From Candidatus Zipacnadia bacterium (lineage in GTDB: Bacteria; Armatimonadota; Zipacnadia; Zipacnadales; UBA5352), in assembly GCA_029820295.1 (NCBI GenBank), contig JALGVA010000016.1:1-50675 (forward strand): a DNA stretch of 50,675 nt, given 5' to 3'. The position numbers and the translations under genes were made by a program. Positions 17,423 through 49,908 of the stretch are shown here, one piece after another (position 1 is the stretch's first letter; every line of letters starts with the position of its first letter). The notes beneath the pieces are model-generated. The model made no database searches. It was not told the origin of the DNA and was given only the letters and a program-made list of their open reading frames with translations.

Positions 17423-17526
17423 GCAAGCCCCCTCCTGCCTGCGCACCGCAGGTGCGCCCAAGGAGGGGGTGGCCCGATCCCGCTCTCGAGCGGGATCGGG
17501 ACGGGGGAGGAGGCCGTTGCCGTCTC
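17423..17526 (-). repeat. Dispersed palindromic element A, copy 1
   Basis: About 104 bases that match 49803-49908 in inverted orientation. It contains a 7-base hairpin GCGCACC/GGTGCGC (17441-17457) at the tip of outer arms CCCCCTCCT and AGGAGGGGG, then a 12-base perfect hairpin CCCGATCCCGCT/AGCGGGATCGGG with a CTCG loop. In the other copy the tip hairpin is replaced by an unrelated palindrome while the arms stay the same. It abuts the end of the EamA gene. Between this element and element B (17276-17422) I see only further short palindromes. Confidence 0.75.
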
Positions 17527-17529
17527 CCC

Positions 17530-18003
17530 CTACGACGTCGGGTCGCCCTGCGGGTTCAGCACGCCCGAGACCAGGATCACGCCGGCGACGATCAGCAGCG
17601 CGCCGATGATCTTGTGCGGCGTGAGCGGCTCGCGATAGACGAGGATGGTCGCGATGGCGGCCACCAGCGGATAGGTCGAGGTGATGGGCACCACCCGTGA
17701 GGCGTCGGCGCCTGACATGGCGTAGTAGTAGGCGAGCTGGCCGATGAGCGCGCCCAGCAGCGAACTCATCACCACGCCGCCGATGATCATCCACAGCGGC
17801 ACCGAGTTGTGCGCCAGCTCGCGCAGCTCGGTCAGCGCGCCGCTGGCGATGGCGTAGGTCGCGATCAGCACCAGCCCCGCCGCGGTGCGCATGAGCACGA
17901 TGGTCCACGGCGACAGATGCTGGGCGAGGAACTTGTCGAAGACCGGCGCGAGGCCCCAGGCGAGCACCGCGACCAGCGCATACATGAACGCGAGCTTGGA
18001 CAT
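17530..18003 (-). CDS. Half-size EamA-domain (DMT superfamily) membrane transporter
   Basis: A 157-residue protein with five predicted helices and one EamA domain, beginning MSKLAFMYALVAVLAWGLAP and ending with YREPLTPHKIIGALLIVAGVILVSG, the typical last two helices. Most EamA transporters have two such domains in about 300 residues, so this belongs to the single-domain group (COG2510-like) that probably works as a dimer. AAGGAG lies seven bases before the ATG at 18003. It follows the FGGY kinase gene by 29 bases and is probably co-transcribed; uptake or efflux of the kinase's substrate is a reasonable guess only. Confidence 0.85.
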   Translation of the reverse strand: MSKLAFMYALVAVLAWGLAPVFDKFLAQHLSPWTIVLMRTAAGLVLIATYAIASGALTELRELAHNSVPLWMIIGGVVMSSLLGALIGQLAYYYAMSGADASRVVPITSTYPLVAAIATILVYREPLTPHKIIGALLIVAGVILVSGVLNPQGDPTS

Positions 18004-18032
18004 GTGATGGCTCCTTGCGGACCGAGTGGGCC

Positions 18033-19535
18033 CTACAGCCGGTGCGCGATCTCCCGGATGGCCGGCCAGGTCTGCGCGTAGCTCTCGCGCAGCTCGGCGT
18101 AGGCCGCCTGCTGGGCCGGGCGCGGCTCGAAGGCCTCGCCCTCGCGCACCAGCGCCTCCGTGGCTTCGGCGAGGTCGCGCCAGACCCCCAGCGCCACGCC
18201 GCCGAGCATCGCTCCGCCCTGGCAGCCGGACTCGCTCACGTTCAGGCGCACCACCGGCTTGCCGGTGATGTCGGCCTTGAGCTGCAGCCAGGCGTCGCTG
18301 CGCGAGCCGCCGCCGGTGGCGCGCAGGCGGTCGATGGGCACGCCCGCGTCCTCGAGCGCGCGCACGTTCAGGTCGATCTCGAAGCAGGTGCCCTCGAGCA
18401 GCGCCTTGACCAGCTTCGGCCGGTCCGTGTCCAGCGCCAGACCGAGGATCGCGCCCTTGGCGTGCGGGTCGAGGTAGGGCGTCCCCGAGCCTGCGAAGTA
18501 CGGAACCCACAGCAGGCCGCTGGGGCCCGGGGGCAGGTCGGTGAGGATGACCTCGTACACATCGACACCGCGCCGCTGTGCTTCCGCCATCTCCGCCGCG
18601 CCGAACAGGTCGCGCCACCAGCGCAGGATCGAGCCCGCCGAGTAGTTGTAGGCGATGGTGGCGTACATGGGCGTAACCACGTGCGGGTAGCAGCCGTAGT
18701 TGTGCGCGCGCATTGCGTCGGAGAGCACCGGCTCGTCGAAGGCCACCGTGATGCACTCGACCGTGCCCATGCCATCGACGCACATGCCCTCGCGGATGAC
18801 GCCCGCGCCCAGCGCGTTCATCGGCTGGTCATGGCCGCCCGCGACCACCAGGCAGCCGGCCTCGAGGCCGACCTCGCCCGCGGCCTGCGCGCTCAGCTCG
18901 CCCACCACCGCGCCCGGCGCGATCGGCTCGGCGAGCATCTCGACCGGAATGCCGGCCGCATCGAGCATCTCCACCGACCACTCGCGCGCGCTCACGTCGA
19001 GCGCCATGGTGCGGCCGGCCAGGGAGTGGTCGATGCGCGGCTGCAGGCCGAGCTTGAACAGGATGGTCTCGGGCCACAGGAGGTACTTCCAGGTGCGCCC
19101 GTGAATCTCGGGGCGCTCCTCGCGCATCCACATGAGCTTGGGCAGCGTGAAGCTCGGACTCAGCGGCATCCCGGTCAACGCGAAGATGCGCTCCGCGCCC
19201 ACGGCTTCTCCGAGGCGTTCGGCGTGCGCGGTGGCGCGCGCATCAGGCGAGACGATGGTGTTGTAGAGGAAGCTGCCGTCCTCGGTGACGGGCGTGAATG
19301 CCTCGCCCAGCGCCGAGATGGCGAGCGAGCGCACGCCGCCGCCGGCCTGCGCCGCCGCCTCGCCGATGACGGTGCGGGTGGCGGCCCAGACGTCATCGGG
19401 GCGCAGCTCGATCCAGCCGGGCTCGGGGTAGACCTCCGCGTACTCGCGGTAGGCGGAGCCGACGATTTCGCCCTCGGGGGTGAACACGACCGCCTTCACG
19501 CCGGTACTGCCCACGTCGATGCCCATGAGGCGCAT
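18033..19535 (-). CDS. FGGY-family carbohydrate kinase
   Basis: A 500-residue sugar kinase of the xylulokinase/gluconokinase type. The first phosphate loop is GIDVGSTGVKAVVF at residues 5-18, the catalytic base is Asp236 in GGHDQPMNALGAG, and the adenosine motif is ATGGGSRSDAWLQLKADITG near residue 410. Length and domain layout are normal for the family. It phosphorylates a sugar or polyol with ATP; the exact substrate cannot be read from the sequence. The ATG at 19535 has GGGAGGG seven bases upstream. With the downstream EamA transporter (29-base gap) and the tandem UroD-like genes it forms a small catabolic-looking block. Confidence 0.93.
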   Translation of the reverse strand: MRLMGIDVGSTGVKAVVFTPEGEIVGSAYREYAEVYPEPGWIELRPDDVWAATRTVIGEAAAQAGGGVRSLAISALGEAFTPVTEDGSFLYNTIVSPDARATAHAERLGEAVGAERIFALTGMPLSPSFTLPKLMWMREERPEIHGRTWKYLLWPETILFKLGLQPRIDHSLAGRTMALDVSAREWSVEMLDAAGIPVEMLAEPIAPGAVVGELSAQAAGEVGLEAGCLVVAGGHDQPMNALGAGVIREGMCVDGMGTVECITVAFDEPVLSDAMRAHNYGCYPHVVTPMYATIAYNYSAGSILRWWRDLFGAAEMAEAQRRGVDVYEVILTDLPPGPSGLLWVPYFAGSGTPYLDPHAKGAILGLALDTDRPKLVKALLEGTCFEIDLNVRALEDAGVPIDRLRATGGGSRSDAWLQLKADITGKPVVRLNVSESGCQGGAMLGGVALGVWRDLAEATEALVREGEAFEPRPAQQAAYAELRESYAQTWPAIREIAHRL

Positions 19536-19615
19536 GCCTTAACCCTCCCGCTTGCGGATACCTGTCCGTGGCACGGGCGGTCTCACCCGTGCGCCGTTGC
19601 CGTTTGCCGCCCCCC

Positions 19616-19665
19616 CACACGTCGCAGATCTTCCGAGCCTTCTCGGCGGCGATGCCCGTGTACTG
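19616..19665 (-). pseudogene. Diverged second copy of the purB 3' end
   Basis: Fifty bases that repeat the end of the intact adenylosuccinate lyase gene (19768-19817). Translated in the purB frame it reads QYTGIAAEKARKICDVW against QYTGIAAQKARSICDLW in the complete gene. It is not joined to any longer purB reading frame. The two tails differ at scattered positions, so this is not a recent exact duplication. It is followed on the minus strand by a GCACGGG/CCCGTGC hairpin. Confidence 0.75.
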
Positions 19666-19670
19666 GCAAC

Positions 19671-19705
19671 GGCCGACGCATGTGAACATGCGGCGCTCCG
19701 AACGG
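19671..19705 (-). repeat. Direct-repeat element C, copy 1 (flanks purB)
   Basis: A 35-base unit sharing most positions with 21289-21323 in the same orientation: GGCCG(A/C)CGCATGTGAA(C/G)ATG then CGGCGCTCCGAACG. It contains the palindrome CGCATG-TGAA-CATGCG. The two copies bracket the intact purB gene. Confidence 0.7.
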
Positions 19706-19746
19706 TAACGGCGCCATTGCCGTAGCTTGCCGCTTGCGGCTTGCAG

Positions 19747-21132
19747 CTACAGCCCCAGCCGCTCCTCCCACAGGTCGCAGATGCTGCGGGCCTTCTGCGC
19801 GGCGATGCCCGTGTACTGCGACGGGTCGAGGATGATCTCGCGCTGGCGGTCGGTCAGCCGCGACCAGTACTCCGCCAGCTCCTCGGAGGCCTGCAGCACC
19901 TCGCCCAGCGGTCGGCCCGACTGCTGGGCCTCGAGTGTGAGCCTGCGCACCGCCTCGTGCGCGTCCGGGTGATCGTGCGCGGCCAGCAGGATGTACGCGG
20001 GCTCCGCGCCGATCATCCCCTCGGTCATCGCCAGGTTCGCGCGCATCTGCTCGGCGTCGGTCACCAGCCGCCCCATGATGCGCGTCAGCCGCAGCGTCGC
20101 CTCGGTCAGCGCGACGATCACCTCGGGCAGGAAGCGCTGCGAGGCCGAGTTGCTCAGGTCGCGCTGGTGCTCGGATATCTGATCGGCATAGACCGTGATC
20201 ATGCGCGGCATGAACTGCTTCCACATCGACTTCACGTTTTCGAAGTTCCACGGATTGCGCTTGTGCGGCATGGTAGATGAGCCCACCTGCTCGGCCTGGA
20301 ACTCCTCGGCCACCTCGCTGATCTCGGTGCGCTGCAGGTGGCGCATGTCGTCGGCGAGGTTGGCCAGCACACCGAAGCACGAGACCAGCGCGTGCATGTA
20401 GTCGGTGACGAATTCGGCCTCGACCACCTGCGTGGAGATGGGCGAGGGCTCGAGCCCCACCTCGGCGAGGACCTCGCGCTCGAACTGTTCGGCGTCGTCG
20501 ATCATCAGCGACGAGGCGTTGTAGGCGCCCACCGCGCCCGAGATCTTGCCGCGCAGGTTCTCCGCCGCCGTGCGGACCGCCTCGATGCGCCCGCCCAGCC
20601 GCGAGACGTACTCGGCGATGGCGAAGCCGAAGGTGACGGGCACCGCGTGCTGGCCGTGGGTGCGGCCGATTTGCAGCGTCTCGGCCTCGCGGCGCGCCAG
20701 CGCGATCAGGATGCGCTCCAACTCCTCGAGAGCCGGCAACAGGCCGCGCAGCGCCGCATGCTTGAGCCGCCAGGCGGTGGCGGTGTCGATCACGTCGAAG
20801 CTGGTGAGCGTGAAGTGGATGTAGGGCTTGGCGGCGTCGCTCACGTGCGCCTTCATGGAGTTGACCAGCGCGCGGATGTTGTGGTGGATGCGCGCCTCCT
20901 CGGCCGCCACCTCCTCGGGCGTCACCACCTCGGCGGCATGCGCGACCTCATCGGCCACGGCCTCAGAGCACACGCCCATGCGCGCGAGCACGCGCGTGGC
21001 GGCGGCCTCGACCATGGCCTCGGAGCGCACGCGCGCGCGCTCGGTCACGTAGTCATCGAGCAGCGCGCGCAGCCTGTCGTTGGGGACATAGTAGCGGAAG
21101 TCGAGCGGTGATACGCAGTCGAACCGGTCCAT
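19747..21132 (-). CDS. purB: Adenylosuccinate lyase
   Basis: A 461-residue member of the fumarase/aspartase superfamily. The signature loop GSSTMPHKRNPWNFENVK, the FTLTSFDVIDTA segment and the QIGRTHGQHAVPVTFG region with the catalytic His are all present. It removes fumarate from SAICAR and from adenylosuccinate in purine synthesis. The start MDRFDCVSPLDFRYY at 21132 is fixed by GGGGAGGG six bases upstream; the frame continues upstream through the repeat-rich gap without support. It stands apart from other purine genes. Element C copies lie on both sides, and a remnant of a second purB 3' end lies just downstream, so the locus has been rearranged. Confidence 0.96.
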   Translation of the reverse strand: MDRFDCVSPLDFRYYVPNDRLRALLDDYVTERARVRSEAMVEAAATRVLARMGVCSEAVADEVAHAAEVVTPEEVAAEEARIHHNIRALVNSMKAHVSDAAKPYIHFTLTSFDVIDTATAWRLKHAALRGLLPALEELERILIALARREAETLQIGRTHGQHAVPVTFGFAIAEYVSRLGGRIEAVRTAAENLRGKISGAVGAYNASSLMIDDAEQFEREVLAEVGLEPSPISTQVVEAEFVTDYMHALVSCFGVLANLADDMRHLQRTEISEVAEEFQAEQVGSSTMPHKRNPWNFENVKSMWKQFMPRMITVYADQISEHQRDLSNSASQRFLPEVIVALTEATLRLTRIMGRLVTDAEQMRANLAMTEGMIGAEPAYILLAAHDHPDAHEAVRRLTLEAQQSGRPLGEVLQASEELAEYWSRLTDRQREIILDPSQYTGIAAQKARSICDLWEERLGL

Positions 21133-21191
21133 CCAGGACCCTCCCCGACGGTGATGCGGGCCTCCCCCTGCGCCTGCTGCGCGGGTGCCTT

Positions 21192-21262
21192 CCCCCTCCG
21201 TTCCGGAGGGGGTAACGACGGCAACAGTCGTTCCGCGCCATCCCGCCCCCGGGCGGGATGGC
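21192..21262. repeat. Paired strong hairpins between purB and the GH5-like gene
   Basis: Two perfect hairpins: CCCCCTCCG/CGGAGGGGG (21192-21200 and 21204-21212, loop TTC) and a 12-base stem GCCATCCCGCCC/GGGCGGGATGGC (21237-21248 and 21251-21262, loop CC). The GC-rich purine/pyrimidine arms are related to elements A and B. Confidence 0.65.
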
Positions 21263-21288
21263 ACGGGACCGCAACGGCGACGGCGAAC

Positions 21289-21323
21289 GGCCGCCGCATG
21301 TGAAGATGCGGCGCTCCGAACGA
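21289..21323 (-). repeat. Direct-repeat element C, copy 2 (flanks purB)
   Basis: Same orientation as the copy at 19671-19705, about 1.6 kb away. The inner palindrome is slightly weakened (CGCAT-GTGAAG-ATGCG). Confidence 0.7.
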
Positions 21324-21343
21324 CAAAGGCACCGACATCGCCC

Positions 21344-24037
21344 TCAGCGCAGGACGACCATGTGCGCGCCCGCGGGCCAGGTGAGCGTGCCGGCGAACTC
21401 GACAGGCGCGGTCTCGCCGCCGTCGCCCCAGGCGGTCGCGTTGTGGGGGGCATCGGGCAGCGTGAGAGCTACACCGGGCGTGTCGCAGTAGACATACCAC
21501 GCACCGCCGTCGCGTACGATCTCCCAGGAACCGTTGACCATCCCCACGCTTGCCACCTGCCTGCCCGCCAGCTCGACCGTGGTGCCCGAAGCGGTCGGCC
21601 GGCCGAGGGTGAGGACCGGCGCCTGGCCGGGGGCGTCGAGCGCGAAGATGGCGCGCTCGCGCTCGCCCACATGCAGCGACTTCTGCTCGCCATCGTTGAG
21701 CGCGATGGTCACCATCTTCAGCACCCAGTGGCGCGAGTCCTCAGGGCCCCTGTCGTCCAGGCTGAGCCAGCACACCGCGCCGATCGAAGAGCTGGTGCGC
21801 ACGGTCATGCGCCCGGTCGCGCGTTCGGGACCCTCGAGCGCGCCCGCGACCGCCTGGAAGGTAGGCGTGTTCACCAGCAGCACCTCGGCCTCCTCGTCGC
21901 GCACGATCTCGCGCGTCTCGGAGACGAAGCGTCCGGTGTCCACGTACCTGTGCGAGATGCGCTCGTCGTAGAGCTGGCCGAAGGCGTCGAGCGCCGCCCG
22001 CAGCTTGTCCTGCGGGTCGAGCGCGTGGTAGACCCAGGTGTTGCGGCGCATGTCGCGCAGGCCGAAGGCGCGCGTGCCATCGACTGAGCGGCCGATGGGG
22101 CGGTAGTTGGGGTCGGCGTCGATGGCGCGCAGCGAGAAGCCCGGATGGGTCTCGCGCTCGGCGCGCACACCGGGCGACAGCAGCGTGCCGCCCCACTCGA
22201 ACATCATCCGCCCGGCCGGCACCGTGGCCACCGGGTAGCCGGACTTCTCAGCGAGTGTGGCCTGGTGACGGCGGTTGAGCAGGTCCTCCGCGCGCTGCTC
22301 GGCGCTGATGACCGCGCGCCTGCCCGCGTAAAGGGCGCCGCTGCTCAGCCCCGACGCGACCATGAGGTCCGAGTCGCCGTCCCACGTCTCATCGAAGAAC
22401 AGCCCGCGCATGGCCGCGACGTTCGCCGCGCGGTAGAGCTGCGCGAGCGTGCGCTCGCCATCGCGATAGTAGCTGTCCACGGTCGAGTAGCCCACGTCGA
22501 TCTGGTGCTCCGACTCGGCGACGTCGCGGCGCAGGAAGACACGAGCGCCCAGCGCCGCCAGCCCCCAGCGCGTGGGGTCGCGGCTGACGTCGAAGAAGTC
22601 CAGCCGCCGCGCCTGCGGCCGGATGTCGTAGGTGAACAGGATCATGGCATCGACGTCCTGCAGCGCGGCGGTGGCGATGGCCTCGACCATGCCGGCGGCG
22701 CGGAACTTGTTGGGCCAGCACACGCCCCATTCCCGCGCGACAATCGGCCGGTCGGCGAAGGCGCTCATTGCCACCCTGGGCGCGAAGCTGTCACCGTCGG
22801 TGTCGCCCAGCGGCGTGTGGTTGACGAAGTACATGGGCAGCCGCCACCGGCCGTCCTTGAGCACCGGATGATCGTAGTAGTAGTTCATGCCGATGAAGTC
22901 GAGGCCGTCATGCACCGAACGCAGGTCGGGGATGCACTCGAAGTCGGTCACCGCGGTGATCGGCTGCTGCACGCCGCGGTCGCGCAGGAACGCAGTCATC
23001 TCCGCGAAGTACTCGCGGTGCACCGAGGCCATGAACAGCGCGAGGTCGTTGAGGCGGCCATCACCGTGGGTGCCGGTGCCCATGCTCGACGCGATCTGGC
23101 CGGGCTGGGCGGCGTCGCCGTGCAGCGTGACCGTGCCCTCCTCGAGCGACTCGCCCGGGCCGAGGGCACAGTGGCCGCGCCAGTCGGTCCAGGCGATGCC
23201 CAGGCTCTCGGTGTCGGTGTAGCGGGAGCGCAGCCAGAAGTTCCACCGCCGCTGCAGCTCCTCGCGGTAGGGCGAGACCAGCACCTGGCGCTTGCGCTGG
23301 GCGGCGAACAGGCCGTTCTCGTCGCACAGCTCGATCAGCGCCACGGTCGGATCCTGCGCGTAGCTCAGACCGGTCTCGGGGTTGATGTGATCGACGAGCA
23401 GCGCGCGTGCGTAGCTCATCTGCAGCTCGATGAGGCGCTCGTTGAAGACCGCGTAGGGTTTAGCGGCGCGGTCGAGGGCATCGGCGTTGGGGACGCCCTC
23501 GCGCTCGTAGAAGGTGCGGAAGTCGAGCAGGTCGAGGTAGACGTAGATGCCGCGCTCACCGCAACGCGCGATCCAGTGATCCACGGCCGCGAGCTTCGCC
23601 GGGTCGATGGGTTCGGCGCTCCCGGCGCGTTCGGGTGGCAGCAGGCCGGTGACGTCGTCGATGTGGTGCAGGCGCACCAGGTTGAAGCCGGCGCGCGCGA
23701 TCGCGTCGATCGCCTCGTCGATGCGCTCGGGTGGCTGGAAGACCGACTCCTTGGCGACGTTGATACCCCAGAAGCGCGCGCGGGTGCCGTCCTCGAAGTA
23801 GAAGTTGCCGTCGCGACCGGTGAAGACGATGCCGCGCTTCCCGCAAGGGCCGTCGAGCAGCGAACTGAGATCGACGAGACTGCTGTCGGGCAGCCCCTCG
23901 GCGTTGGGGTCGAGGTTGGGCAGCCGCCTGCCCATGAGCGCGGGCGGCTCGACCTGTGCGCACGCGGGCAGGGCCCACAGCGTCCCGGCGGTCGCGACGA
24001 TGAGGAGCCGCCATGATCGCAGCATGAGTGCAGGCAT
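21344..24037 (-). CDS. Secreted GH5-like glycoside hydrolase (cellulase-superfamily TIM barrel)
   Basis: An 897-residue exported protein. Residues about 1-25 form a signal peptide (MLRSWRLLIVATAGTLWALPACAQ). A TIM barrel of clan GH-A type follows: FWGINVAKES, FNLVRLHHIDD, then the acid/base region VALIELCDENGLF, where the usual NE pair reads DEN, and the nucleophile region PIVAREWGVCWP. The last 300 residues look like beta-sandwich domains. It probably hydrolyses a beta-linked glycan outside the cell. The start at 24037 was chosen for the signal peptide; the ATG at 24025 is an alternative, and the longer frame upstream has no support. The Asn to Asp change next to the acid is unusual and could be checked. 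Confidence 0.8.
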   Translation of the reverse strand: MPALMLRSWRLLIVATAGTLWALPACAQVEPPALMGRRLPNLDPNAEGLPDSSLVDLSSLLDGPCGKRGIVFTGRDGNFYFEDGTRARFWGINVAKESVFQPPERIDEAIDAIARAGFNLVRLHHIDDVTGLLPPERAGSAEPIDPAKLAAVDHWIARCGERGIYVYLDLLDFRTFYEREGVPNADALDRAAKPYAVFNERLIELQMSYARALLVDHINPETGLSYAQDPTVALIELCDENGLFAAQRKRQVLVSPYREELQRRWNFWLRSRYTDTESLGIAWTDWRGHCALGPGESLEEGTVTLHGDAAQPGQIASSMGTGTHGDGRLNDLALFMASVHREYFAEMTAFLRDRGVQQPITAVTDFECIPDLRSVHDGLDFIGMNYYYDHPVLKDGRWRLPMYFVNHTPLGDTDGDSFAPRVAMSAFADRPIVAREWGVCWPNKFRAAGMVEAIATAALQDVDAMILFTYDIRPQARRLDFFDVSRDPTRWGLAALGARVFLRRDVAESEHQIDVGYSTVDSYYRDGERTLAQLYRAANVAAMRGLFFDETWDGDSDLMVASGLSSGALYAGRRAVISAEQRAEDLLNRRHQATLAEKSGYPVATVPAGRMMFEWGGTLLSPGVRAERETHPGFSLRAIDADPNYRPIGRSVDGTRAFGLRDMRRNTWVYHALDPQDKLRAALDAFGQLYDERISHRYVDTGRFVSETREIVRDEEAEVLLVNTPTFQAVAGALEGPERATGRMTVRTSSSIGAVCWLSLDDRGPEDSRHWVLKMVTIALNDGEQKSLHVGERERAIFALDAPGQAPVLTLGRPTASGTTVELAGRQVASVGMVNGSWEIVRDGGAWYVYCDTPGVALTLPDAPHNATAWGDGGETAPVEFAGTLTWPAGAHMVVLR

Positions 24038-24139
24038 CTCGGCGTGCAATGATAGCGCGAAAGCCGCGCGAGGGCAACCGTCGTGCTGGCGCGAGGCCCG
24101 GCGGGCGGGGGGGCCGCCGCCCAACATCGACATGGACCG

Positions 24140-24252
24140 CGGGCGGCCTCGCCCGCGGCCGTCCGCATTGCCGAATGTGGGCCGCCTTCCACCGATGCCG
24201 TGGCCCTTGTCGTACGGAGAGGCGCGCTTCCCTGCGCGCCCATGCCGTTACA
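24140..24252. repeat. Dispersed palindromic element D, copy 1, in an intergenic gap
   Basis: The 265-base gap between the GH5-like and deacetylase genes holds nested hairpins. GATGCCG, then GTACGGAGAG (24212-24221), is followed by a GGCGCGC/GCGCGCC hairpin and by CATGCCGTTAC. The same arms, with different hairpins between them, occur at 35905-35967 and, in part, at 40371-40406. Confidence 0.6.
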
Positions 24253-24302
24253 TGGAGCTTCCCGGCCGGTCTGGATGGCGGCAGACTCGCCGCACCGTGC
24301 GC

Positions 24303-26971: not shown

Positions 26972-27057
26972 GATCGGTCCTCCGCACGGCTGTGGGGGTA
27001 AGGGAGTGCTTGCTCGGTGGCGTTAACGACGTGGACGCAGGGGATGTTCCGAGGCGG

Positions 27058-40202: not shown

Positions 40203-40406
40203 GGGCCGGTCAGGCGTCTGCGACGTGCTGGCGCACGTCGCGCCGCTCGCGCTGGCACACGAGCGGCCCCTCCCCAACGGCGCACGACGTTGGTGTGTCG
40301 CGCACGCGGGGCGGCTCCTCTCCATGGCATGTGGCATCGCGTCGTTCGGGGGGCGCCCACGCTCGGCGTCGTTGCCGTCCGGAGAGGGCCGGTCGCCTGA
40401 CCGGCC
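40203..40406. repeat. Hairpin-rich convergent gap with a partial element D
   Basis: Between the YeiH-type and TPR genes: GCGACGTGC/GCACGTCGC (40220-40228 and 40233-40241, loop TGGC) and, after GTTGCCGTCCGGAGAG (40371-40386), the perfect hairpin GGCCGGTC-GCCT-GACCGGCC (40387-40406). The GCCGT(A/C)CGGAGAG arm matches element D copies 24212 and 35911, where other hairpins follow. The 274-base gap holds no gene. Confidence 0.6.
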
Positions 40407-40438
40407 CCCGCATCACGATGCCCCGACGCCGTCCTCCA

Positions 40439-41509: not shown

Positions 41510-41656
41510 GTTCCCGACCTCCTCGCCAACTGATGGCCGTCGCCAAGCGATTCGCCTCGGCCGATGCGGTCTCCTGCACGCGCAGGAGGTCGATGGCGGC
41601 GCATCGCGAATGCTGCTCGGCGAGAACCCGATGACTGACAGGAGGCGGGGCCGCCG

Positions 41657-42664
41657 ATGAAGAAGCTCATCAACGACCCGATGGCGTTCGTGGACGAGAC
41701 CATCGAGGGCATCCTGCTCGCCCGGCCCGACCACCTCAAGCGCTGCGAGGGCTCGGAGCGGGCGCTGATGCGCGCCGACGGCCCCGTCGAGGGCAAGGTC
41801 GCCATCGTCACCGGCGGCGGCTCCGGGCACATCCCGGTCTTCCTGGGCTACGTGGGCCCGGGGCTGCTCGACGCGGTCTCCATCGGCAACGTATTCTCGT
41901 CGCCCTCGCCCGACGACATGCTCGCCGCCACCAGGGCCGCGCACGGCGGCGCGGGCGTGCTGCACCTGTACGGCAACTACTCGGGTGACGTGATGAACTT
42001 CGGCATGGCTGCGGAGATGGCCGAGATGGAGGACATCGAGGTCACCACCGTGCTCGCGCGCGACGACGTGGTCTCCGCGCCGGTCGCGGAGATGGACCGC
42101 CGGCGCGCGGTCGCCGGCCTGTTCTTCGCCTACAAGATCGCCGGGGCGCACGCCGAAGAGGGCGCCGACCTCGCGGCAGTCGCCGCCGCCGCCGAACACG
42201 CGGCGGTCAACACGCGCTCCATGGGTGTGGCGCTCACCCCGTGCACCATCCCGGCCGCCGGCGAGCCGACTTTCACGCTCGGCGAGGACGAGATGGAGCT
42301 GGGCATGGGCATCCACGGTGAGCCCGGCCTGCGCCGCACGCACATCATGCCCGTGGACGACGTCGTGGACGAGATCATGGAGAACGTGCTCGGCGACCTG
42401 CCCTTCGCGTCGGGCGACGAGGTCGCGGTGCTGGTCAACGGCCTCGGGGCCACACCGCCTGAGGAGCTGTTCCTGATGTATCGCCGCACGAAGGTCATCC
42501 TCGACGAAGCCGGGATCAGCGTGCACCGGGCCTTCGTGGGCGAGTATGCGACGTCGATGGAGATGGCCGGGGCATCGGTGAGCCTGCTGAAGCTCGAGGG
42601 CGACCTCAAGCGCCTGCTGGATGCGCCCGCCTACTCGCCCTTCCTGCCACAATGGCCGCGCTGA
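41657..42664 (+). CDS. dhaK: Dihydroxyacetone kinase subunit DhaK-like
   Basis: A 335-residue DhaK. The substrate-binding half has TGGGSGHIPVFLGYVGPGLLDA, and the covalent hemiaminal histidine is in GMGIHGEPGLRR. NYSGDVMNF is also conserved. DhaK binds a ketose such as dihydroxyacetone for phosphorylation by DhaL. The ATG at 41657 follows GGAGGCGGGG. The dhaL gene follows 55 bases downstream. No DhaM phosphotransferase subunit is visible, so phosphate may come from ATP bound to DhaL, or the true substrate may be a related triose or tetrose, as in erythrulose-type kinases. Confidence 0.93.
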   Translation: MKKLINDPMAFVDETIEGILLARPDHLKRCEGSERALMRADGPVEGKVAIVTGGGSGHIPVFLGYVGPGLLDAVSIGNVFSSPSPDDMLAATRAAHGGAGVLHLYGNYSGDVMNFGMAAEMAEMEDIEVTTVLARDDVVSAPVAEMDRRRAVAGLFFAYKIAGAHAEEGADLAAVAAAAEHAAVNTRSMGVALTPCTIPAAGEPTFTLGEDEMELGMGIHGEPGLRRTHIMPVDDVVDEIMENVLGDLPFASGDEVAVLVNGLGATPPEELFLMYRRTKVILDEAGISVHRAFVGEYATSMEMAGASVSLLKLEGDLKRLLDAPAYSPFLPQWPR

Positions 42665-42719
42665 GCGCAGACCGCGGGCCACCGGAAGCCCGCGGCCGGT
42701 AGCCGGAGGTACACCGCTG

Positions 42720-43358
42720 ATGGAGAAGCTGACGGGCGCCGACATCATCGCCTTCCTGCGCATGCTCGCTGAGGAGATGCCCGGGCACAGGGACGAGCTG
42801 CGCGACCTCGACGCCCGCATGGGCGACGGCGACCTGGGCATCACCGTGTCGATCGGCATGAAGGCCATCGGCGACGGCCTCGCCGACCTCGAGGGCGAGA
42901 CGCCCGGGACCATCCTCGCGCGCAGCGGCATGAGCTTCAACCGCGAGGCGGCCTCGACCTTCGGCGCGATCTTCGCCACCGCGCTGATGGGCGCGGGGAA
43001 AACCGTGCGCGATCAGGAGGAGATCACGCTGGCGGACCTGCCGCCGATGCTCGAGGCGGCGGCGTCGGACGTGAGCGCGCGCGGCGGCGCGAAGCCCGGC
43101 GAGAAGACCATCCTCGACGTGCTGCTGCCCATGGCCGAGGCGCTCAAGGGCGAGGTGGGCGCGGGCAGCAGCCTGCCGGACGCGGCGCGGCGGGCCCATG
43201 AGGCGTGCGTGGAGGCGCTGGAGTTGACGAAGCAGATGGAGGCCCGGCACGGGCGTGGCGGCTGGCTCAAGGAGAAGAGCATCGGCCAGCCCGATCCCGG
43301 CTCCACCGCCATCTGCATGATGGTCGAGTGCTTCGCCAGGTTCGTAGCGCAGAGCTGA
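42720..43358 (+). CDS. dhaL: Dihydroxyacetone kinase subunit DhaL-like
   Basis: A 212-residue DhaL. The nucleotide and magnesium site is LDARMGDGDLGITVSIGMKAI; GEKTILDVLLPMAEAL and the final GSTAICMMVECFA match the family. The usual GGASGPLYGT loop is altered to REAASTFGAIFAT. DhaL binds ADP or ATP and passes phosphate to the ketose on DhaK. The ATG at 42720 has GGAGGT nine bases upstream. It forms an operon with dhaK. The altered loop and the absence of dhaM leave the donor unclear. Confidence 0.92.
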   Translation: MEKLTGADIIAFLRMLAEEMPGHRDELRDLDARMGDGDLGITVSIGMKAIGDGLADLEGETPGTILARSGMSFNREAASTFGAIFATALMGAGKTVRDQEEITLADLPPMLEAAASDVSARGGAKPGEKTILDVLLPMAEALKGEVGAGSSLPDAARRAHEACVEALELTKQMEARHGRGGWLKEKSIGQPDPGSTAICMMVECFARFVAQS

Positions 43359-43418
43359 TCTCAGGCGGCGCGGGGACGAGGCCGCGGATGACGCCACTGC
43401 GCTCGCCGGCTCTCCCGC

Positions 43419-44438
43419 TCAGCGATCCGCCGACCACTCCTGCGGCAGTGCCAGGTACCACACGTCATTGACCAGCGGCCATTCATTGCCTCCGACCACC
43501 CACAGCCGGTCATCGAAGACGTAGGCCGAGTGCTCATGGCGCTCTGCCCAGATGGTCGGGGTCTTCAGCTCGTGCCAGGTCTCGCCGTCGGCCGAATACC
43601 AGACATCGTTCCAGTTGCGCGAGGGGTTGTTCGACCACCCGCCCAGCAGCCACATGCAGCCGCGGTAGACCACCGCCGAGAACCAGATGCGCGGCGGCCA
43701 CGGCGCGTGCTCGGTCACCAGCGTCCAGTTGACCCCGTCGGGCGAACTCCAGACATCGTTGCAGCCGTGGTACTCGGGCAGGTAGTTCCCGCCGCCGAGC
43801 ACCCATAGCCTGCCGTCGAACGCCAGCGCGGCGTGGTAGGCGCGCGGCGACCACGGGGCGCGCGCGGTCGCCTGCGTCCACCTGACCCCGTCCGCCGAGT
43901 GCCAGACGTCGCTACGCAGGTCGCCGTCGTCGCCGAAGAAGTACTGCTGGGTGCCGCCGAGGAGCCACATCTTCCCGTCGAAGACCGCGCCCGCGGCGCC
44001 GCAGCGCGGACTCCAGCCGGCACTCGGCGCAGCGCACTCCCAGGTGGCGCCATCGGCGGATGACCAGACCTCGTTGCTGGCTCCGCCCTCCTCCAGCCGC
44101 CCCGCGTACCACCCGCCCATGAGCCACATGCGGCCGTCGTGGACCACGGTGGTGGGGAGGTCGCCGGCCCTCCAGCCGGCCTTCTCGGTCATCAGCTCCC
44201 AGTCGATGCCGTCGGCGGAGGCCCACACATCGCGCGGGCCGATGATGTTCGAACTGAACCACCCGCCCAGCAGCCACATGCGCCCGTCGTGGACCACCTC
44301 GCCGCACGAATCGCGCGGCGCCCACTGCGCATGCTCCGTCACCCGCACCCAGTCCACTTCCTGAGCCATGAGCGCCTCCGGCAGAGCCATCGTCACGAGC
44401 GAGGCGATCAACGACATGCCTGCGCGGGACATCCGCAT
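43419..44438 (-). CDS. Exported six-bladed kelch-type propeller protein
   Basis: A 339-residue protein with a signal peptide (MSLIASLVTMALPEALMAQ) and six near-identical repeats of about 50 residues: W-x-PR-...-VVHDGRMWLLGG-...-DVWxSADGxxWE. This is a complete six-blade kelch beta-propeller. Exported kelch proteins bind or modify carbohydrates (galactose oxidase type) or act as adhesion modules; no catalytic Cys-Tyr pair is evident. The ATG at 44438 overlaps the stop of the small upstream frame (TGATG) but has no clear ribosome site, so expression may depend on coupling; ATGs at 44432 and 44417 are alternatives. Confidence 0.85.
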   Translation of the reverse strand: MRMSRAGMSLIASLVTMALPEALMAQEVDWVRVTEHAQWAPRDSCGEVVHDGRMWLLGGWFSSNIIGPRDVWASADGIDWELMTEKAGWRAGDLPTTVVHDGRMWLMGGWYAGRLEEGGASNEVWSSADGATWECAAPSAGWSPRCGAAGAVFDGKMWLLGGTQQYFFGDDGDLRSDVWHSADGVRWTQATARAPWSPRAYHAALAFDGRLWVLGGGNYLPEYHGCNDVWSSPDGVNWTLVTEHAPWPPRIWFSAVVYRGCMWLLGGWSNNPSRNWNDVWYSADGETWHELKTPTIWAERHEHSAYVFDDRLWVVGGNEWPLVNDVWYLALPQEWSADR

Positions 44439-44671
44439 CACTGCGGGGCGGCGGCGTCGGCGGGCAGCTCGATCCAGCGCCCGCACCACCAGTTGGGGTC
44501 GGCATCGACCGCGGTGCGGCCGATCTCGTTGCCCGTCCCGTCGCAGAGCTGCAGCCAGACCGACGGCGCCTGCATAGTCTCGTACCAGGTAAGCAGGGCC
44601 ACGCGTCCATCCGGCGCCCACGCCGCCCCCTTGACGTGCAGGTCCTCATCCCACGCCTGCGGGTTGCTCAC
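44438..44671 (-). CDS. Short PD40-like protein or propeller fragment
   Basis: Seventy-seven codons from GTG 44671. The sequence contains HVKGAAWAPDGRVALLTWYE and SVWLQLCDGTGNEIGRT, which looks like one or two PD40/WD40 propeller blades, too short for a whole propeller. It begins 13 bases after the end of the phosphonatase gene and its stop overlaps the kelch start (TGATG). It could be a remnant of a larger propeller protein or a genuine small coupling frame. The context of tight spacing on both sides argues for translation; the truncated domain argues for decay. Confidence 0.45.
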   Translation of the reverse strand: MSNPQAWDEDLHVKGAAWAPDGRVALLTWYETMQAPSVWLQLCDGTGNEIGRTAVDADPNWWCGRWIELPADAAAPQ

Positions 44672-44684
44672 CGGCCCCGGCCTG

Positions 44685-45515
44685 CTACGGGCGCTCGCCG
44701 TGCGCCAGCCGCTCGTCGATCTGCTCGATGACCGCGGGCAGGTCGGCGATGGTCGGGATGACGAAGTGCGCGCCCGCGCGGGCCAGCTTGTCGTGTGCGG
44801 CGTCGATGCGCGCGGCCAGCGCCGGGCGGGGCGTCGCCGCCAGCTCCTCCGCGCCCAGGCCCAGCTCGTTGCCCGACTCGATCACCGCCACCGCCCAGGC
44901 GCCGGCGTTGAGCGCCTCTTCGATGTCCGGCACGGTGTCGCCGACCTTGACCACCGCCGCCGCCGGGTAGACGCCGGTCTCGAGCATGTTGACCACCAAC
45001 ATCCACGGCGCGGGCCGCGCCTCGGAGACGTCGGTGGCGCACACGTTCGAGTCTGCCTCGAAACCCTGCTCGCGCGCCGCCGGCACCAGCGCGTCCATCA
45101 CCGCCTGGAAGTAGCCCGAGTTGGTGGCGATGCTCACGTCGCGCGCGCGCAGCCACTCCTGCACCTCGAGCACGCCCGGGATCAGGCGGGCGTGGTCGAG
45201 CGCCGCGTGCACCTGGATCGGCGCGAAGGCCTCGTAGAGGCGATCCACGTCAGTGACGGTCGCGGGGGCGCCGTGACGCTCCTGCCACGCGGCCGCGATC
45301 TCGGGCATGGCCAGCAGCGCCTGGATGTGCTCGCGCTTGCCGATCCCCATGGGCCCGCGCGCCTGCTCGATGGTGACGGCGACCTCCTCGCGCGCGAACA
45401 GCTCGACGAAGGCCATCGCCGGCGCGCGGCAGCCGAAGTCCACGATGGTGCCCGCCCAGTCGAACGCTACCAAGCCGACCGGTCCGGTGTACTGCCGTCG
45501 CCAGGTGAAGCGCAT
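44685..45515 (-). CDS. phnX: Phosphonoacetaldehyde hydrolase
   Basis: A 276-residue HAD-superfamily enzyme. The family-specific first motif VAFDWAGTIVDFGCRAP carries the nucleophile Asp and the AGT turn; GPMGIGKREHIQALL gives the Schiff-base Lys region; SIATNSGYFQAVMD and CATDVSEARPAPWML match PhnX, and VKVGDTVPDIEEAL supplies the acidic motif. It cleaves phosphonoacetaldehyde to acetaldehyde and phosphate in 2-aminoethylphosphonate use. The ATG at 45515 has GAGGAGGG just upstream. The aminotransferase PhnW is not in the window, so the substrate source is unclear. Length is normal. Confidence 0.9.
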   Translation of the reverse strand: MRFTWRRQYTGPVGLVAFDWAGTIVDFGCRAPAMAFVELFAREEVAVTIEQARGPMGIGKREHIQALLAMPEIAAAWQERHGAPATVTDVDRLYEAFAPIQVHAALDHARLIPGVLEVQEWLRARDVSIATNSGYFQAVMDALVPAAREQGFEADSNVCATDVSEARPAPWMLVVNMLETGVYPAAAVVKVGDTVPDIEEALNAGAWAVAVIESGNELGLGAEELAATPRPALAARIDAAHDKLARAGAHFVIPTIADLPAVIEQIDERLAHGERP

Positions 45516-45538
45516 GGGGCCCTCCTCAGGACTGAATG

Positions 45539-45877
45539 TCACGCGTCGGCGTCCGGTTGCTCCCGACTCCTGCCGCGCAGAGCCAGGTGAAGCTCCCACA
45601 GCCCGCCCTCATAGTCGAGCCAGTCCATCGGCGCCATCATGGAGACCACGGCGTCGAAGCTGTCGTCGTCCAGCATCGGCATATCGGTGACCGATGCGAC
45701 CTCGCAGCGCACACCCGGCGGCGCGCGCTTCTCCTCTGCGCGCGCCCGCTCGATCATGCGCGTGGAGAGGTCCACGCCGGTCGCGCGCACGTGGCGCGCC
45801 CACACCTCCGCGTTGCCGTCCCACAGGCGCCGCACCGCGTCGTCGGACTCGGGCTCTCGCTCGGGCATGGTCGCCAC
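45539..45877 (-). pseudogene. Class I SAM methyltransferase with internal deletion
   Basis: An open frame of 112 codons (GTG 45877, ATG 45868). It begins VRRLWDGNAEVWARHVRA, the usual opening of a small UbiE/COQ5-like methyltransferase, but jumps directly to TGVDLSTRMIERARAEE. The SAM-binding motif I (DxGxGxG) and its helix, about 40-50 residues, are missing. It then runs through CEVASVTDMPMLDDDSFDAVVSMM and ends shortly after WLDYEGGLWELHLALRG, with the C-terminal half also gone. It cannot bind SAM as normal, so it is treated as a decayed gene. Confidence 0.7.
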
Positions 45878-45959
45878 CCACAGGCGCGTCGCTGTTGATC
45901 CAGCGAGGCATTCACCACGCGGACGGCGGCGGCCTGCTCGGAGGCGTGGCCGCTGCCGG

Positions 45960-46874
45960 TCAGTCCAGCTCCGCCAGCATCGCGTCGAGCTTCGCGCGTG
46001 GCTTGTCGAGCGAGTGGGCGTGACGCATCATGGCCCACCACGGATCGCGCTTCTGTCCCAGACGCCGGAACAGGTTCTCGATGGTCCAGTTCCGCGGGCC
46101 GAGGTCGCCGTCCCCCAGCTCGTGCCAGTCCAGCGGCGTGGCTACCGGCGCCCCCGGGCGCGCGCGCACCGCGTAGGGAGCCACCGCGGTGGCCCCGTAG
46201 GAGTTGCGCAGCACGTCGAGGAACAGCCGCCCTGCGCGCTTGTTCTTGCGCTGTTCGATCGTGTAGGTATCGGGCTTGCGCGCGACCAGCGCCTCCGCAA
46301 GGTCGTGCGCGAACTTGCGCACCGTGTCAAAGCCGTGCTCGCGGCGCAACGGCGCCACTACGTGCAGGCCCTTCGAGCCGGTGGTCATCACCCATGGACT
46401 CAGGCCGATCTCCTCAAGCGCCTCGCGCAGGTCCTGTGCCGCCCGCCGCACGACCGCGAAGTCGCCGCGGTCCTCGGGCGGATCGAGGTCGAAGATCATC
46501 CGGTCGGGTCGCTCGAGGTCATCGGCGCGCGACAGCCACAGGTGCGGCGTGATGCACGCCTGGTTGGCGATGTAGACGAGGCCCGCGGCGCTGTCGATGA
46601 CCGGCGCCTCCAGCGTCCCGCCCTCGCGCTTGGGCACGGTCACGCGCCTGATCCACTCGGGGTAGAAGTCCGGCGTGTCCTTGTGGTAGAAGCCCTGCCC
46701 CTGCAACCCGTCGGGGTAGCGCAGCATGCTCACCGGGTAGTGCCGGATGTGCGGGATCATCACCTCGGCGATGCGCACGTAGTACTCGATCAGGTCGCCC
46801 TTGGTCAGCCCGGCGTCGGGGAAGAACACCTTGGCACGGTTCCGGATGTCGATGTCGCGGCCGCCGACCTTCAT
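45960..46874 (-). CDS. Stand-alone LigD-type polymerase/primase domain protein
   Basis: A 304-residue archaeo-eukaryotic primase-type polymerase like the polymerase domain of LigD. The metal-binding acids are Asp129 and Asp131 in IFDLDPP, the third is Asp220 in RLFLDVLRN, and TGSKGLHVVAPL at 165-176 contacts the nucleotide. LRYPDGLQGQGFYHKD is also typical. LigD polymerase fills gaps during end joining with Ku and a ligase. Here neither Ku nor ligase is in the window, so it may act with partners elsewhere or in another repair path. The ATG at 46874 follows GGAAGGGTGAG. A large nested hairpin lies immediately upstream. Confidence 0.93.
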   Translation of the reverse strand: MKVGGRDIDIRNRAKVFFPDAGLTKGDLIEYYVRIAEVMIPHIRHYPVSMLRYPDGLQGQGFYHKDTPDFYPEWIRRVTVPKREGGTLEAPVIDSAAGLVYIANQACITPHLWLSRADDLERPDRMIFDLDPPEDRGDFAVVRRAAQDLREALEEIGLSPWVMTTGSKGLHVVAPLRREHGFDTVRKFAHDLAEALVARKPDTYTIEQRKNKRAGRLFLDVLRNSYGATAVAPYAVRARPGAPVATPLDWHELGDGDLGPRNWTIENLFRRLGQKRDPWWAMMRHAHSLDKPRAKLDAMLAELD

Positions 46875-46900
46875 GCGCTCTCACCCTTCCCATGGTTGCC

Positions 46901-46983
46901 GGGCGGCCCCCCACCGCGCAGTTCGTGGGAGACGGCGGTCTTCCTGCCGATAAGCTATGCACATCGGCAGGTGTGGGCCGCCC
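46901..46983. repeat. Nested hairpin in the divergent gap upstream of the LigD-type gene
   Basis: Outer stem GGGCGGCCC/GGGCCGCCC (46901-46909 and 46975-46983) encloses an inner stem CTGCCGAT/ATCGGCAG (46944-46951 and 46963-46970). It lies between two divergent starts (46874 and 47050), so it is not a terminator for either gene; it could be an operator, a leader structure or a mobile palindrome. Confidence 0.55.
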
Positions 46984-47049
46984 CATTGGGGCATAGTAAT
47001 GGTAGCAGGGCCGCCCGAGAAGTGAAGCCGCGCCGTGTGGAGGCCGGGC

Positions 47050-48483
47050 ATGGAGATCGGGACCGACAAGTGGCTGCTCTTCGACGACACGCTCTTTGAG
47101 CGCAAGCGCGGCTTCGCGACCACCGTGCACGAGGCCGTCCGCGACCCCCAGCCGGTGCTGCGCTCGGAGATGCCCTGGGAACAGGCGCGCGTGTGGTGGC
47201 ACAACACCGTCTTCGAGGATGACGGCGTCATCAAGCTCTACTACTGCGCTTATGGTGAGGATGAGCACGCGCGACTGTGCCTGGCGACCTCGACCGACGG
47301 CGTCAACTTCGAGCGCCCCAGCCTGGGCCTCATTGAGTACGAGGGCAGCGCCGCCAACAACATCGTCTTCGAGGTGCGGCCGCCCTCGGAGTACCACGGC
47401 ACCGTCTTCATCGACCCGGTCGCGCCCCCCGAGGAGCGCTACAAACTCATCTTCGACGGCAACCTGCTCGGCGGCGGCAGGTACCGCGGCATCCGCGGGG
47501 CGTACTCCGCCGACGGCATCCGCTGGACCGTCTACCCGGCCGCCAACATCATCCCCTGGTACACCGACACCCAGAACGTCGCCTTCCGCGACGAGCGCAT
47601 CGGCAGGTACGTGGCCTACGTGCGCTGGGACGAGGGCTTCACCGTCGAGGACCTGACCGTCAGCGGGCAGTTCCACCACCGCTGCGTGGGCCGCACCGAG
47701 AGCGAGGACTTCACCGGCTTCCCCGTGCCCGAGAAGGTGCTCGATCCCGCCCCGGCGGGCACCGACATGGAGCACCACCGCGGCTGGATGGATCTCTACA
47801 ACCCCATCGTGCTGCACTGGCCGGGCACGCCCAACTACATCATGCTGCCCAGCGCCTTCTACCACTACGGCATCGCCAACAAGCTCGACGTGCGGGTCGC
47901 CACCAGCCGCGACGGCATTGACTGGACACTGCTGCCCGACACCTTCGTGCGCCTGGGCGTCGGCGGCGCCTGGGACTCCGAGCGCATCTACATGGCCCAG
48001 GGCATGGTGCCCGCGGGCGACGAGACCCTCCTCTACTACGCCGGCTTCGACCTCGATCACTCCAGCCACCACAAGCCCTACCCGCCGCGCTTCGGCGCCA
48101 TCGGGCGCGCGCGCATCCGGCTCGACGGCTTTGTGTCGCAGGAGGCCGGTAGCGATGGCGGCGAGATCGTCACGAAGCCCTTCGTGATGCCCGCCGACCG
48201 TCTGCTGCTCAACTTCGACGGCAGCGCCGGCGGCCACGTGATGATCGAGTTCCTCGACGAGGACGGGCGCGGCATCGAAGGCTACTCGGGCGAGGCCAGC
48301 GGTCCGATGTGCGGCAACTCCGTCCGCCGCGTGGCGTACCTGCGCGAGCCCTCGCTGGTGGACCTGGGCGCGCTGGTGGGCCGCACCGTGCGCCTGCGCA
48401 TCACGGGCCGCAACTGCCGGCTGTATTCGCTGCAGTTCATCGACGCCAACGCGCTCGAGGCCGGCGGGATGCGCTATGACTGA
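47050..48483 (+). CDS. GH32/GH43-like five-blade propeller protein with C-terminal beta domain
   Basis: A 477-residue protein from ATG 47050 (GGAGG six bases upstream). Residues about 1-345 resemble the five-bladed propeller of GH32/43/68/130-type proteins: DKWLLFDDTLFE, WWHNTVFEDDGVIKLYYCAYG, ARLCLATSTDGVNFERP, RGAYSADGIRWTVYP, and DVRVATSRDGIDWTLLP with ERIYMAQGMVPAGDETLLYYAG. A beta-sandwich of about 110 residues follows. No signal peptide is visible. It probably acts on an oligosaccharide, but catalytic acids cannot be assigned with certainty. The stop codon overlaps a possible start of the next gene, so the two are likely co-expressed. Confidence 0.82.
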   Translation: MEIGTDKWLLFDDTLFERKRGFATTVHEAVRDPQPVLRSEMPWEQARVWWHNTVFEDDGVIKLYYCAYGEDEHARLCLATSTDGVNFERPSLGLIEYEGSAANNIVFEVRPPSEYHGTVFIDPVAPPEERYKLIFDGNLLGGGRYRGIRGAYSADGIRWTVYPAANIIPWYTDTQNVAFRDERIGRYVAYVRWDEGFTVEDLTVSGQFHHRCVGRTESEDFTGFPVPEKVLDPAPAGTDMEHHRGWMDLYNPIVLHWPGTPNYIMLPSAFYHYGIANKLDVRVATSRDGIDWTLLPDTFVRLGVGGAWDSERIYMAQGMVPAGDETLLYYAGFDLDHSSHHKPYPPRFGAIGRARIRLDGFVSQEAGSDGGEIVTKPFVMPADRLLLNFDGSAGGHVMIEFLDEDGRGIEGYSGEASGPMCGNSVRRVAYLREPSLVDLGALVGRTVRLRITGRNCRLYSLQFIDANALEAGGMRYD

Positions 48484-48532
48484 CGCTTCGAGCGCCCCGG
48501 CGGGCGAATCCCCATGCCGAAGAGGCGACACC

Positions 48533-49777
48533 ATGGCCATCGACCTGGACGCGAACTTCCCGCGCTACGATCAGTTCGAGCCCGCCGCGCCGATCTGGCG
48601 CGTCACCGCCGGTATCGACCGCTGCTTCCACCGCTTCTTCGACACCTCGCCCATCAGCCCGTCGGGCCGCTACGTCGGGCTCACGCGCCTGCCCGCCGAG
48701 GAGCGCATGCCGGTCGCGGGTGAGCCCGCCGAGGTGGTGGTAATCGATCTGGAGACCGGCGAGCATGACGTCGTGGCGGCCACCCACGGCTGGGACACGC
48801 AGCTCGGGGCGCAGGTACAGTGGGGCGCGAGCGACCGCGAGCTGTGGTTCATCGACATGCACGTGGATCGCTGGCTGCCCTTCAGCGTGTGCATGGACCC
48901 GCTGTCGGGTAGGCGCCGCGAGATCAAGGGCGAACTCTACATGGTCTCACCCGACGGCACGAAGCTGGCCGCGCCGTGCCTGCGCCGCACGCGCCGCACG
49001 CAGCGCGGCTACGGCGTCATCGCCCCCGACGAGCACATTCCGGTCAACCACGGCGCGCCCGACGACGACGGCCTGTACGTGACCGACGTGGCGACCGGGC
49101 AGGCCATGCTGGTGGCCTCGTTCGCGGACATCCTCGACACCGCGCTCGACCCGGAGGACTACGCCGGCGGGGCGCTCTACGGCTTCCACGTGAAGTGGAA
49201 CCCGCAGGGCACGCGGCTGATGTTCGTGGTGCGCTGGGTGCCGGAGGGCTCGACGGAGTGGATCTCGCGCAGGAACGCGGTCATCACCATGCGCTCGGAC
49301 GGGTCGGAGATCCGCTGCGCGATCCCGTGGGATGTGTGGGCGCGCGGCGGCCATCACCCCAATTGGACGCCCGACGGCGACCATGTGATGATGAACCTGA
49401 AGCTGGACGGGGAGAACATGCGGCTGGTTCAGGCGCGCTGGGACGGCGCGGACCTGCGGCTGATGCATCCCGACCTGGAGGGCTCCGGGCACCCGTCGCT
49501 GCACCCCGACGGCCGGTACGTGCTCACCGACGTGTACGCGCACGGGCCGCTGGCGTGGGAGGACGGGACGACGCCGCTGCGGCTGCTCGACCTTGAGGCG
49601 GGCGAGGAGACGCGCGTGGCGCGCATCCGCAGCAGGCCCGACTACGAGGGCGACGTCAAGGTGCTGCGCGTCGATCCGCACCCGGCGTGGGGGCCCGACC
49701 GCCGCCACGCCGCCTTCAACGCCTGCCCGGATGGCACACGCGATGTGTTCGTGGCGGACCTGGGGGGGCTGATGTGA
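48533..49777 (+). CDS. Oligogalacturonate lyase-like / TolB-type propeller protein
   Basis: A 414-residue cytoplasmic-looking beta-propeller: FFDTSPISPSGRYVGLTRLP, PAEVVVIDLETGEHDVVA, GAQVQWGASDRELWFIDMH, GELYMVSPDGTKLAAPCL, HHPNWTPDGDHVMMNLKLDGENMRL and GHPSLHPDGRYVLTDVYAH. The order and the HHPNW and GHPSLHPDGRY segments recall oligogalacturonate lyases and related PD40 proteins, but a pectin substrate is only a guess. ATG 48533 has AGAGG seven bases upstream; ATG 48476, which overlaps the previous gene by eight bases, is the alternative start. Confidence 0.82.
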   Translation: MAIDLDANFPRYDQFEPAAPIWRVTAGIDRCFHRFFDTSPISPSGRYVGLTRLPAEERMPVAGEPAEVVVIDLETGEHDVVAATHGWDTQLGAQVQWGASDRELWFIDMHVDRWLPFSVCMDPLSGRRREIKGELYMVSPDGTKLAAPCLRRTRRTQRGYGVIAPDEHIPVNHGAPDDDGLYVTDVATGQAMLVASFADILDTALDPEDYAGGALYGFHVKWNPQGTRLMFVVRWVPEGSTEWISRRNAVITMRSDGSEIRCAIPWDVWARGGHHPNWTPDGDHVMMNLKLDGENMRLVQARWDGADLRLMHPDLEGSGHPSLHPDGRYVLTDVYAHGPLAWEDGTTPLRLLDLEAGEETRVARIRSRPDYEGDVKVLRVDPHPAWGPDRRHAAFNACPDGTRDVFVADLGGLM

Positions 49778-49802
49778 GGCCTACGTGCGGGTGTGCGCAA
49801 GG

Positions 49803-49908
49803 GAACGGCAACGACCTCCTCCCCCGTCCCGATCCCGCTGTTGAGCGGGATCGGGCCACCCCCTCCTTGGTCCCGCCCGGGGGCGGGACAGGCAGGAGGG
49901 GGCTTGCG
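49803..49908 (+). repeat. Dispersed palindromic element A, copy 2
   Basis: Matches the minus strand of 17423-17526. The 12-base hairpin CCCGATCCCGCT/AGCGGGATCGGG has loop GTTG here. The tip hairpin is TCCCGCCC/GGGCGGGA (49871-49878 and 49881-49888) in place of GCGCACC/GGTGCGC, while the outer CCCCCTCCTTGG and CAGGCAGGAGGGGGCTTGCG arms are unchanged. Confidence 0.75.

Follow-up and report, generated by a model that had tools for sequence, protein, structure and literature searches.

Dispersed three-arm mirror repeats with variable loop hairpins in a Zipacnadia genome

Repeats with the layout of an intrastrand triplex are known from Escherichia coli, where the TMECO elements (also called PIT or Box C) are class II intrastrand triplex repeats (Holder et al. 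2015, PMC4666352). Their consensus is CCCTCNCCC N3-6 GGGNGAGGG N3 GGGNGAGGG, they form a stable triplex in vitro, and their loci are unusually variable; the published searches for such repeats allowed loops of 1-6 nt (ITxF) or 0-10 nt (an earlier search) (PMC4666352). The subject of this report is Element A, a short repeat present twice in a 50,675-nucleotide stretch of DNA from Candidatus Zipacnadia bacterium (contig JALGVA010000016.1, here called the window), together with an inverted companion, Element B. A class II (purine-motif) intrastrand triplex requires three arms in the order Y (pyrimidine), R (purine) and R', the last being a mirror purine arm. A mirror copy of R cannot substitute for R in Watson-Crick pairing with Y.

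The host is an uncultured marine bacterium, and its class within the Armatimonadota, Zipacnadia, has been described from marine sediments (PMC10290634). Its genome (G000) is a draft metagenome-assembled genome of 5.63 Mb in 331 contigs, of which the window is contig C227. The two copies of Element A, A1 and A2, lie where the first-pass annotation of the window had placed them, and the roughly 100 bases they were said to share correspond to a BLAST alignment of 102 bp at 88% identity. The difference at the tip hairpin is equally clear, the two tips being wholly unlike: GCGCACC-TGC-GGTGCGC in A1 and TCCCGCCC-GG-GGGCGGGA in A2. Read on the G-rich strand, Element A has the order Y-tip-R-hairpin-R', that is, CCCCCTCCT-tip-AGGAGGGGG-hairpin-GGGGGAGGAGG. 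The third, homopurine arm, which had been missed, is the mirror image of R, and it is mostly unpaired in Watson-Crick folds. Both copies fold far better than dinucleotide shuffles (z of -4.8 and -5.3 for A1 and A2, with 0 of 200 shuffles as good). The tip is present in the fold, but it does not sit directly on the CCCCCTCCT stem as had been described, an internal loop parting the two. The parts of both copies are as follows.

17423-17526, minus strand: Element A copy A1 (head strand minus; Y-R-R' order read on the plus strand)
17428-17436, plus strand: A1 arm Y, CCCCCTCCT, start of the exact pattern match
17441-17457, minus strand: A1 tip hairpin T1, GCGCACCTGCGGTGCGC
17461-17469, plus strand: A1 arm R, AGGAGGGGG
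17473-17500, plus strand: A1 second hairpin, CCCGATCCCGCT-CTCG-AGCGGGATCGGG
17503-17513, plus strand: A1 third arm R', GGGGGAGGAGG, mirror of R
49803-49908, plus strand: Element A copy A2 (head strand plus; Y-R-R' order read on the minus strand)
49829-49856, plus strand: A2 second hairpin, CCCGATCCCGCT-GTTG-AGCGGGATCGGG
49871-49888, plus strand: A2 tip hairpin T3, TCCCGCCCGGGGGCGGGA

What is conserved, to judge from sequence comparison, seems to be the three-arm triplex motif, not the tips. With one mismatch allowed, a 768-kb sample of the genome contains 15 Y-R-R' patterns with a mirror third arm, and each of two Markov simulations contains none. With exact arms, a search of 61 genomes finds 81 mirror patterns in seven genomes of the same GTDB family (G000, 16; the same-genus G001, 28; G005, 5; G006, 3; G007, 6; G008, 1; G009, 22) and no direct-repeat third arm in the same seven. 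Counts are lower bounds, as the assembly is a draft in which many copies are found at the ends of contigs. Beyond the family, mirror matches come from two distant genomes and direct ones from four, several of these matches being palindromic clusters. The arm class GGAGGGGG is found with 35 mirror and 1 direct third arms, and a second arm class, GGAGAGGG with GGGG(A/T)GAGG, with 10 and 0, respectively. Since the second class follows the mirror rule too, the classes differ in all three arms at once, and the arm order with a mirror second purine arm is that of a class II triplex. Contig C38 (L094/L242), which carries one of the 16 elements of G000, is 99.7% identical over 1.4 kb to contig C113 (L274) of G005, which belongs to another genus; this reflects either cross-bin contamination or very recent transfer. 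In the set of 88 elements used below for loop analysis, the C38 element is excluded and the G005 copy retained.

The likeness to TMECO concerns the core: Y-R-R' order, G/C-rich arms of 8-9 nt and a mirror third arm, in elements that are dispersed, mostly intergenic, variable between lineages and at times arranged as inverted pairs. In contrast to TMECO, the loops of the present family usually reach 18-35 nt, are themselves hairpins and are shared and recombined among copies, and the host belongs to the Armatimonadota. The A arms (CCCCCTCC/GGAGGGGG/GGGGGAGG) differ from the TMECO consensus, while the B arms resemble it but enclose loops that are too long. The family is thus the same architecture with much longer, recombined hairpin loops, outside the published loop limits.

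The genome-wide search with tips listed, which had been proposed as a check, gives 34 places matching A2. The matches extend over anything between the bare 33-bp head and a complete copy, and several tip types occur among them. The family is low-copy, as a census of the 768-kb sample finds no 16-mer with 8 or more copies. When copies are aligned on the head CCTCCTCCCCCG, arms and head are retained, whereas the hairpins vary. The tips include T1 (GCGCACC/GGTGCGC), T2 (GCGACCGC/GCGGTCGC), T3 (TCCCGCCC/GGGCGGGA), TCGCGGCC/GGCCGCGA, nested forms and others. The second, 12-bp hairpin (CCCGATCCCGCT/AGCGGGATCGGG) is indeed the same in A1 and A2 except for its loop, as first reported, but it has no special conservation across the genome: in other copies different hairpins take its place, the types at this position including GATCCCGCT, GAGC..GCTC and others. 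Among the 88 elements, loop sequences are widely different and mostly hairpins. A perfect stem of at least 6 bp is present in the second loop of 63% of unique sequences, compared with 7% of shuffles. For the first loop, which measures either 5 or about 25 nt, the figures are 77% and 7% when it is long; in simple members it is no more than GGAAC or similar. An element with ends TATGCATTACCCACA / TGTGGGTAATGCATA is found within the second hairpin of some Element A copies (L026, L028, L029, L095). Another context, GGTTCCATCCCGGCCC (L004, L009), is also seen with differing hairpins (TGACGCCTGCGC.. or TGAGACTGCTCG..), perhaps a sign that an unrelated repeat undergoes exchange of this kind too.

A hairpin-exchange process, one of the two explanations offered by the first-pass annotation, gains support from this diversity of tips and loop hairpins and from their combinations. 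With exact arms in this genome, A arms hold T1 (in A1) as well as T3 (in A2, C31 and C291), and B arms likewise hold both, T3 in C252. Each of the two tips is also paired with both GATC-type and GAGC-type second hairpins, the GAGC-T3 case coming from G001. All four combinations thus exist on both sides of the tip, which calls for either exchange or repeated origin of the same hairpins. The seven exact T1 copies in this genome all occupy tip positions; T1 is also free-standing in other orders, and it is conceivable that so stable a hairpin arose independently. A tip-to-tip deletion product that recurs, CCCGATCCCGG-T2-AGGCAGGAGGGGG, fits what would be left behind if T2 copies in slots 1 and 2 recombined with each other, and one G001 copy (L287) has lost the stretch from R to R' at a short GGGA match.

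The other explanation, selection on folding through compensating changes, is not supported. The GATCCCGCT hairpin, compared across 11 copies, covaries no more than expected from shuffling, with one both-side change and 316 of 500 shuffles reaching the observed value, although the few sequences limit power. Most single-base changes in the 12-bp hairpin leave a mismatch or a G-T pair. Consequently, the hairpins change as blocks. The exchange idea had been tied both to several hairpin types genome-wide, which are found, and to an excess of compensating changes, which is absent. Template switching is a possible route of exchange, and it is known as a one-step way to make or maintain perfect hairpins; however, it predicts multiple compensatory changes or loop inversions (PMC8794818), and neither stands out here. 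Loop inversion was considered as its signature and set aside: although the T3 loops differ (GG, CC, TT), T1 points the same way with respect to its arms in every copy that was inspected, which gives no clear signature. The mosaics are accounted for just as well by recombination among dispersed copies.

A1 and A2 look like lineage-specific, seemingly recent insertions on grounds of parsimony, because the corresponding junctions of relatives lack the element. A1 stands between putative EamA-type transporter and uroporphyrinogen-decarboxylase-like genes (names read from sequence), which are nearly contiguous in G005, G003 and G002. A2 stands between convergent genes whose stop codons are a few bases apart in G001 and overlap in G008. 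At another syntenic site, an A+B pair is present in G001 and absent in G000. Each window copy is half of a larger pair with the inverted Element B, A1 and its partner forming an inverted pair of about 300 bp. The remaining family members of the window are listed below.

17229-17305, minus strand: full Element B beside A1, CCCCTCTCC-tip-GGAGAGGGG-hairpin-GGGGGTGAGG
about 49924-49965, plus strand: Element B remnant (R-hairpin-R') beside A2
21161-21212, minus strand: third, simple member, CCCCCTCC-GGAAC-GGAGGGGG-hairpin-GGGGGAGG

About 30 bp from the simple member, at 21241-21258, lies a free-standing T3 hairpin (CCATCCCGCCC..GGGCGGGATGG). Directly after Element B, at 17188-17216 on the minus strand, there is a promoter-like pair GTGACA-17-TATACT; the downstream gene may therefore owe a promoter of its own to the A1+B insertion.

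The A+B inverted pairs end in GGCAACGRCCTCCTC and GAGGAGGTCGTTGC. In a further set of copies, the ends are longer (GTGAATCCGGAATG... / ...CAATCTCAGGACGC) and promoter-like sequences follow immediately downstream. The terminal ends are imperfectly inverted, as GGCAACGRCCTCCTC/GAGGAGGTCGTTGC or GGGTGTG/CRCACCC. Seven composites of 160-500 bp (L014, L015, L022, L024, L026, L027, L029) share the ends GTGAATCCGGAATGTCGGTATGAGCGACGG ... CTACCGACAATCTCAGGACGC around very different nested interiors; promoter-like sequences begin a short way downstream of them, and some of the composites precede apparent tRNA genes. A target-site duplication is not evident by eye in seven full-length composites. A viral origin was discarded, the head pattern having no match in viral contigs.

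The account favoured here, which is considered probable with considerable room for doubt, is that A and B are non-coding repeats, dispersed and probably mobile, on a class II triplex core, with loop hairpins swapped by recombination or template switching. In such a core, the pyrimidine arm Y would pair with its Watson-Crick partner R, and the mirror arm R' could align antiparallel to R through reverse-Hoogsteen pairs. Conservation would fall on the three arms, and the two loops would be open positions for interchangeable hairpins. In the single-stranded state, during replication or transcription, the strand would fold and the polymerase would stall. The stall could then lead to the swapping, nesting or deletion of loop hairpins, whether by slippage, by template switching or by recombination among dispersed copies. 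The sequences themselves show the anatomy, the mirror rule, varied and mosaic loops, the recurring deletion and a presence restricted to certain lineages, whereas triplex folding, polymerase stalling, the route of exchange and the spread of copies are inferred. Several observations weigh against this account. In the 768-kb sample, with one mismatch allowed, direct-repeat third arms number 9 against the 15 mirror arms. The mirror counts are not independent, because the copies descend from each other, and for each arm class a single chance resemblance in an ancestor could have been multiplied by copying. Two orthologous sites of G000 and G001 have retained their loop type, so exchange is not fast, and the comparison yields no orthologous site where the replacement of one tip by another is seen directly. 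Moreover, for TMECO itself a stable triplex was seen neither in duplex DNA nor in vivo (PMC4666352).

The main competing explanation, regarded as rather unlikely, treats the elements as palindromes resembling repetitive extragenic palindromic (REP) sequences and bacterial interspersed mosaic elements (BIME), or miniature inverted-repeat transposable elements (MITE). Their hairpins would be mobilised by a Y1 transposase of the REP-associated tyrosine transposase (RAYT) type or by another transposase, new tips would arise via nested insertion of small palindromes, and the mirror arm would be a copied ancestral accident. REP/BIME and the paired REPINs with their RAYT genes share with the present family short palindromes, inverted pairs and mosaic composites, and differ in the three-arm mirror core, the swapping of tips as blocks and the hairpins at the Y1 genes (PMC2817692, PMC3116915). 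The composites, with their imperfect inverted ends and lineage-specific presence, also resemble non-autonomous MITE-like elements, and A/B inverted pairs with similar ends, T3-like hairpins found alone and the existence of Y1 genes in the genome all suit this explanation. However, each of the two Y1 (RAYT-like) genes (L162 3463-4066 and L163 2414-3119) is bracketed by an inverted pair of its own hairpins (CGGCCGGGCTTCAGCCCGGCCG; GCACGGGCGTCCTCGCCCGTGC), unrelated to A and B, and neither region contains A or B arms; mobilisation by these genes was rejected on this basis. In addition, neither a target duplication nor a parental transposase was found, the mirror rule also holds in the second arm class, and the exact T1 copies of this genome are all within arms. 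In one Y1 region of G009, a related remnant lies about 200 bp away.

Hairpins of RNA or terminator type at mRNA 3' ends, with stems selected while their sequence drifts, are improbable. Strong folding is as expected of them, both window copies come after gene ends, and in a crude survey tandem or convergent gaps are much commoner than divergent ones; this gene context comes from a simple GC-frame gene caller, some of whose 'inside gene' calls are wrong (e.g., at 17229-17305). On the other hand, the covariation excess is absent in the 11 copies, no intrinsic terminator (hairpin with T-run) is found at A1 or A2, and no Rfam family matches in the window. Many copies instead lie just upstream of promoter-like sequences, and a mirror third arm has no role in Watson-Crick RNA folding. 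Still less credible is a G-quadruplex, in which G-runs on one strand would be the kept feature instead of a triplex. The G-rich strand of A1 and A2 does carry the runs GGGGG, GGG, GGG and GGGGG, but the second hairpins of many members lack such runs and the mirror order is still kept. A quadruplex needs neither mirror symmetry nor a pyrimidine arm, and it is rejected as a general explanation because the loop G-runs are not kept.

A bolder form of the favoured account, offered tentatively and with more doubt than conviction, is that the triplex core acts as the scaffold for a genome-wide trade in loop hairpins, so that the copies would make up a self-spreading, fold-driven cassette exchange system in one bacterial family. 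Triplex-type repeats with long hairpin loops exist beyond the loop limits of published searches. The intrastrand triplex repeats of E. coli have been tied to genome instability, with their role unsettled. The present family is a natural experiment in this respect, in which the arms are kept and the loops vary and recombine at sites absent in relatives. The instability idea thereby becomes testable, through the importance of R' for loop turnover.

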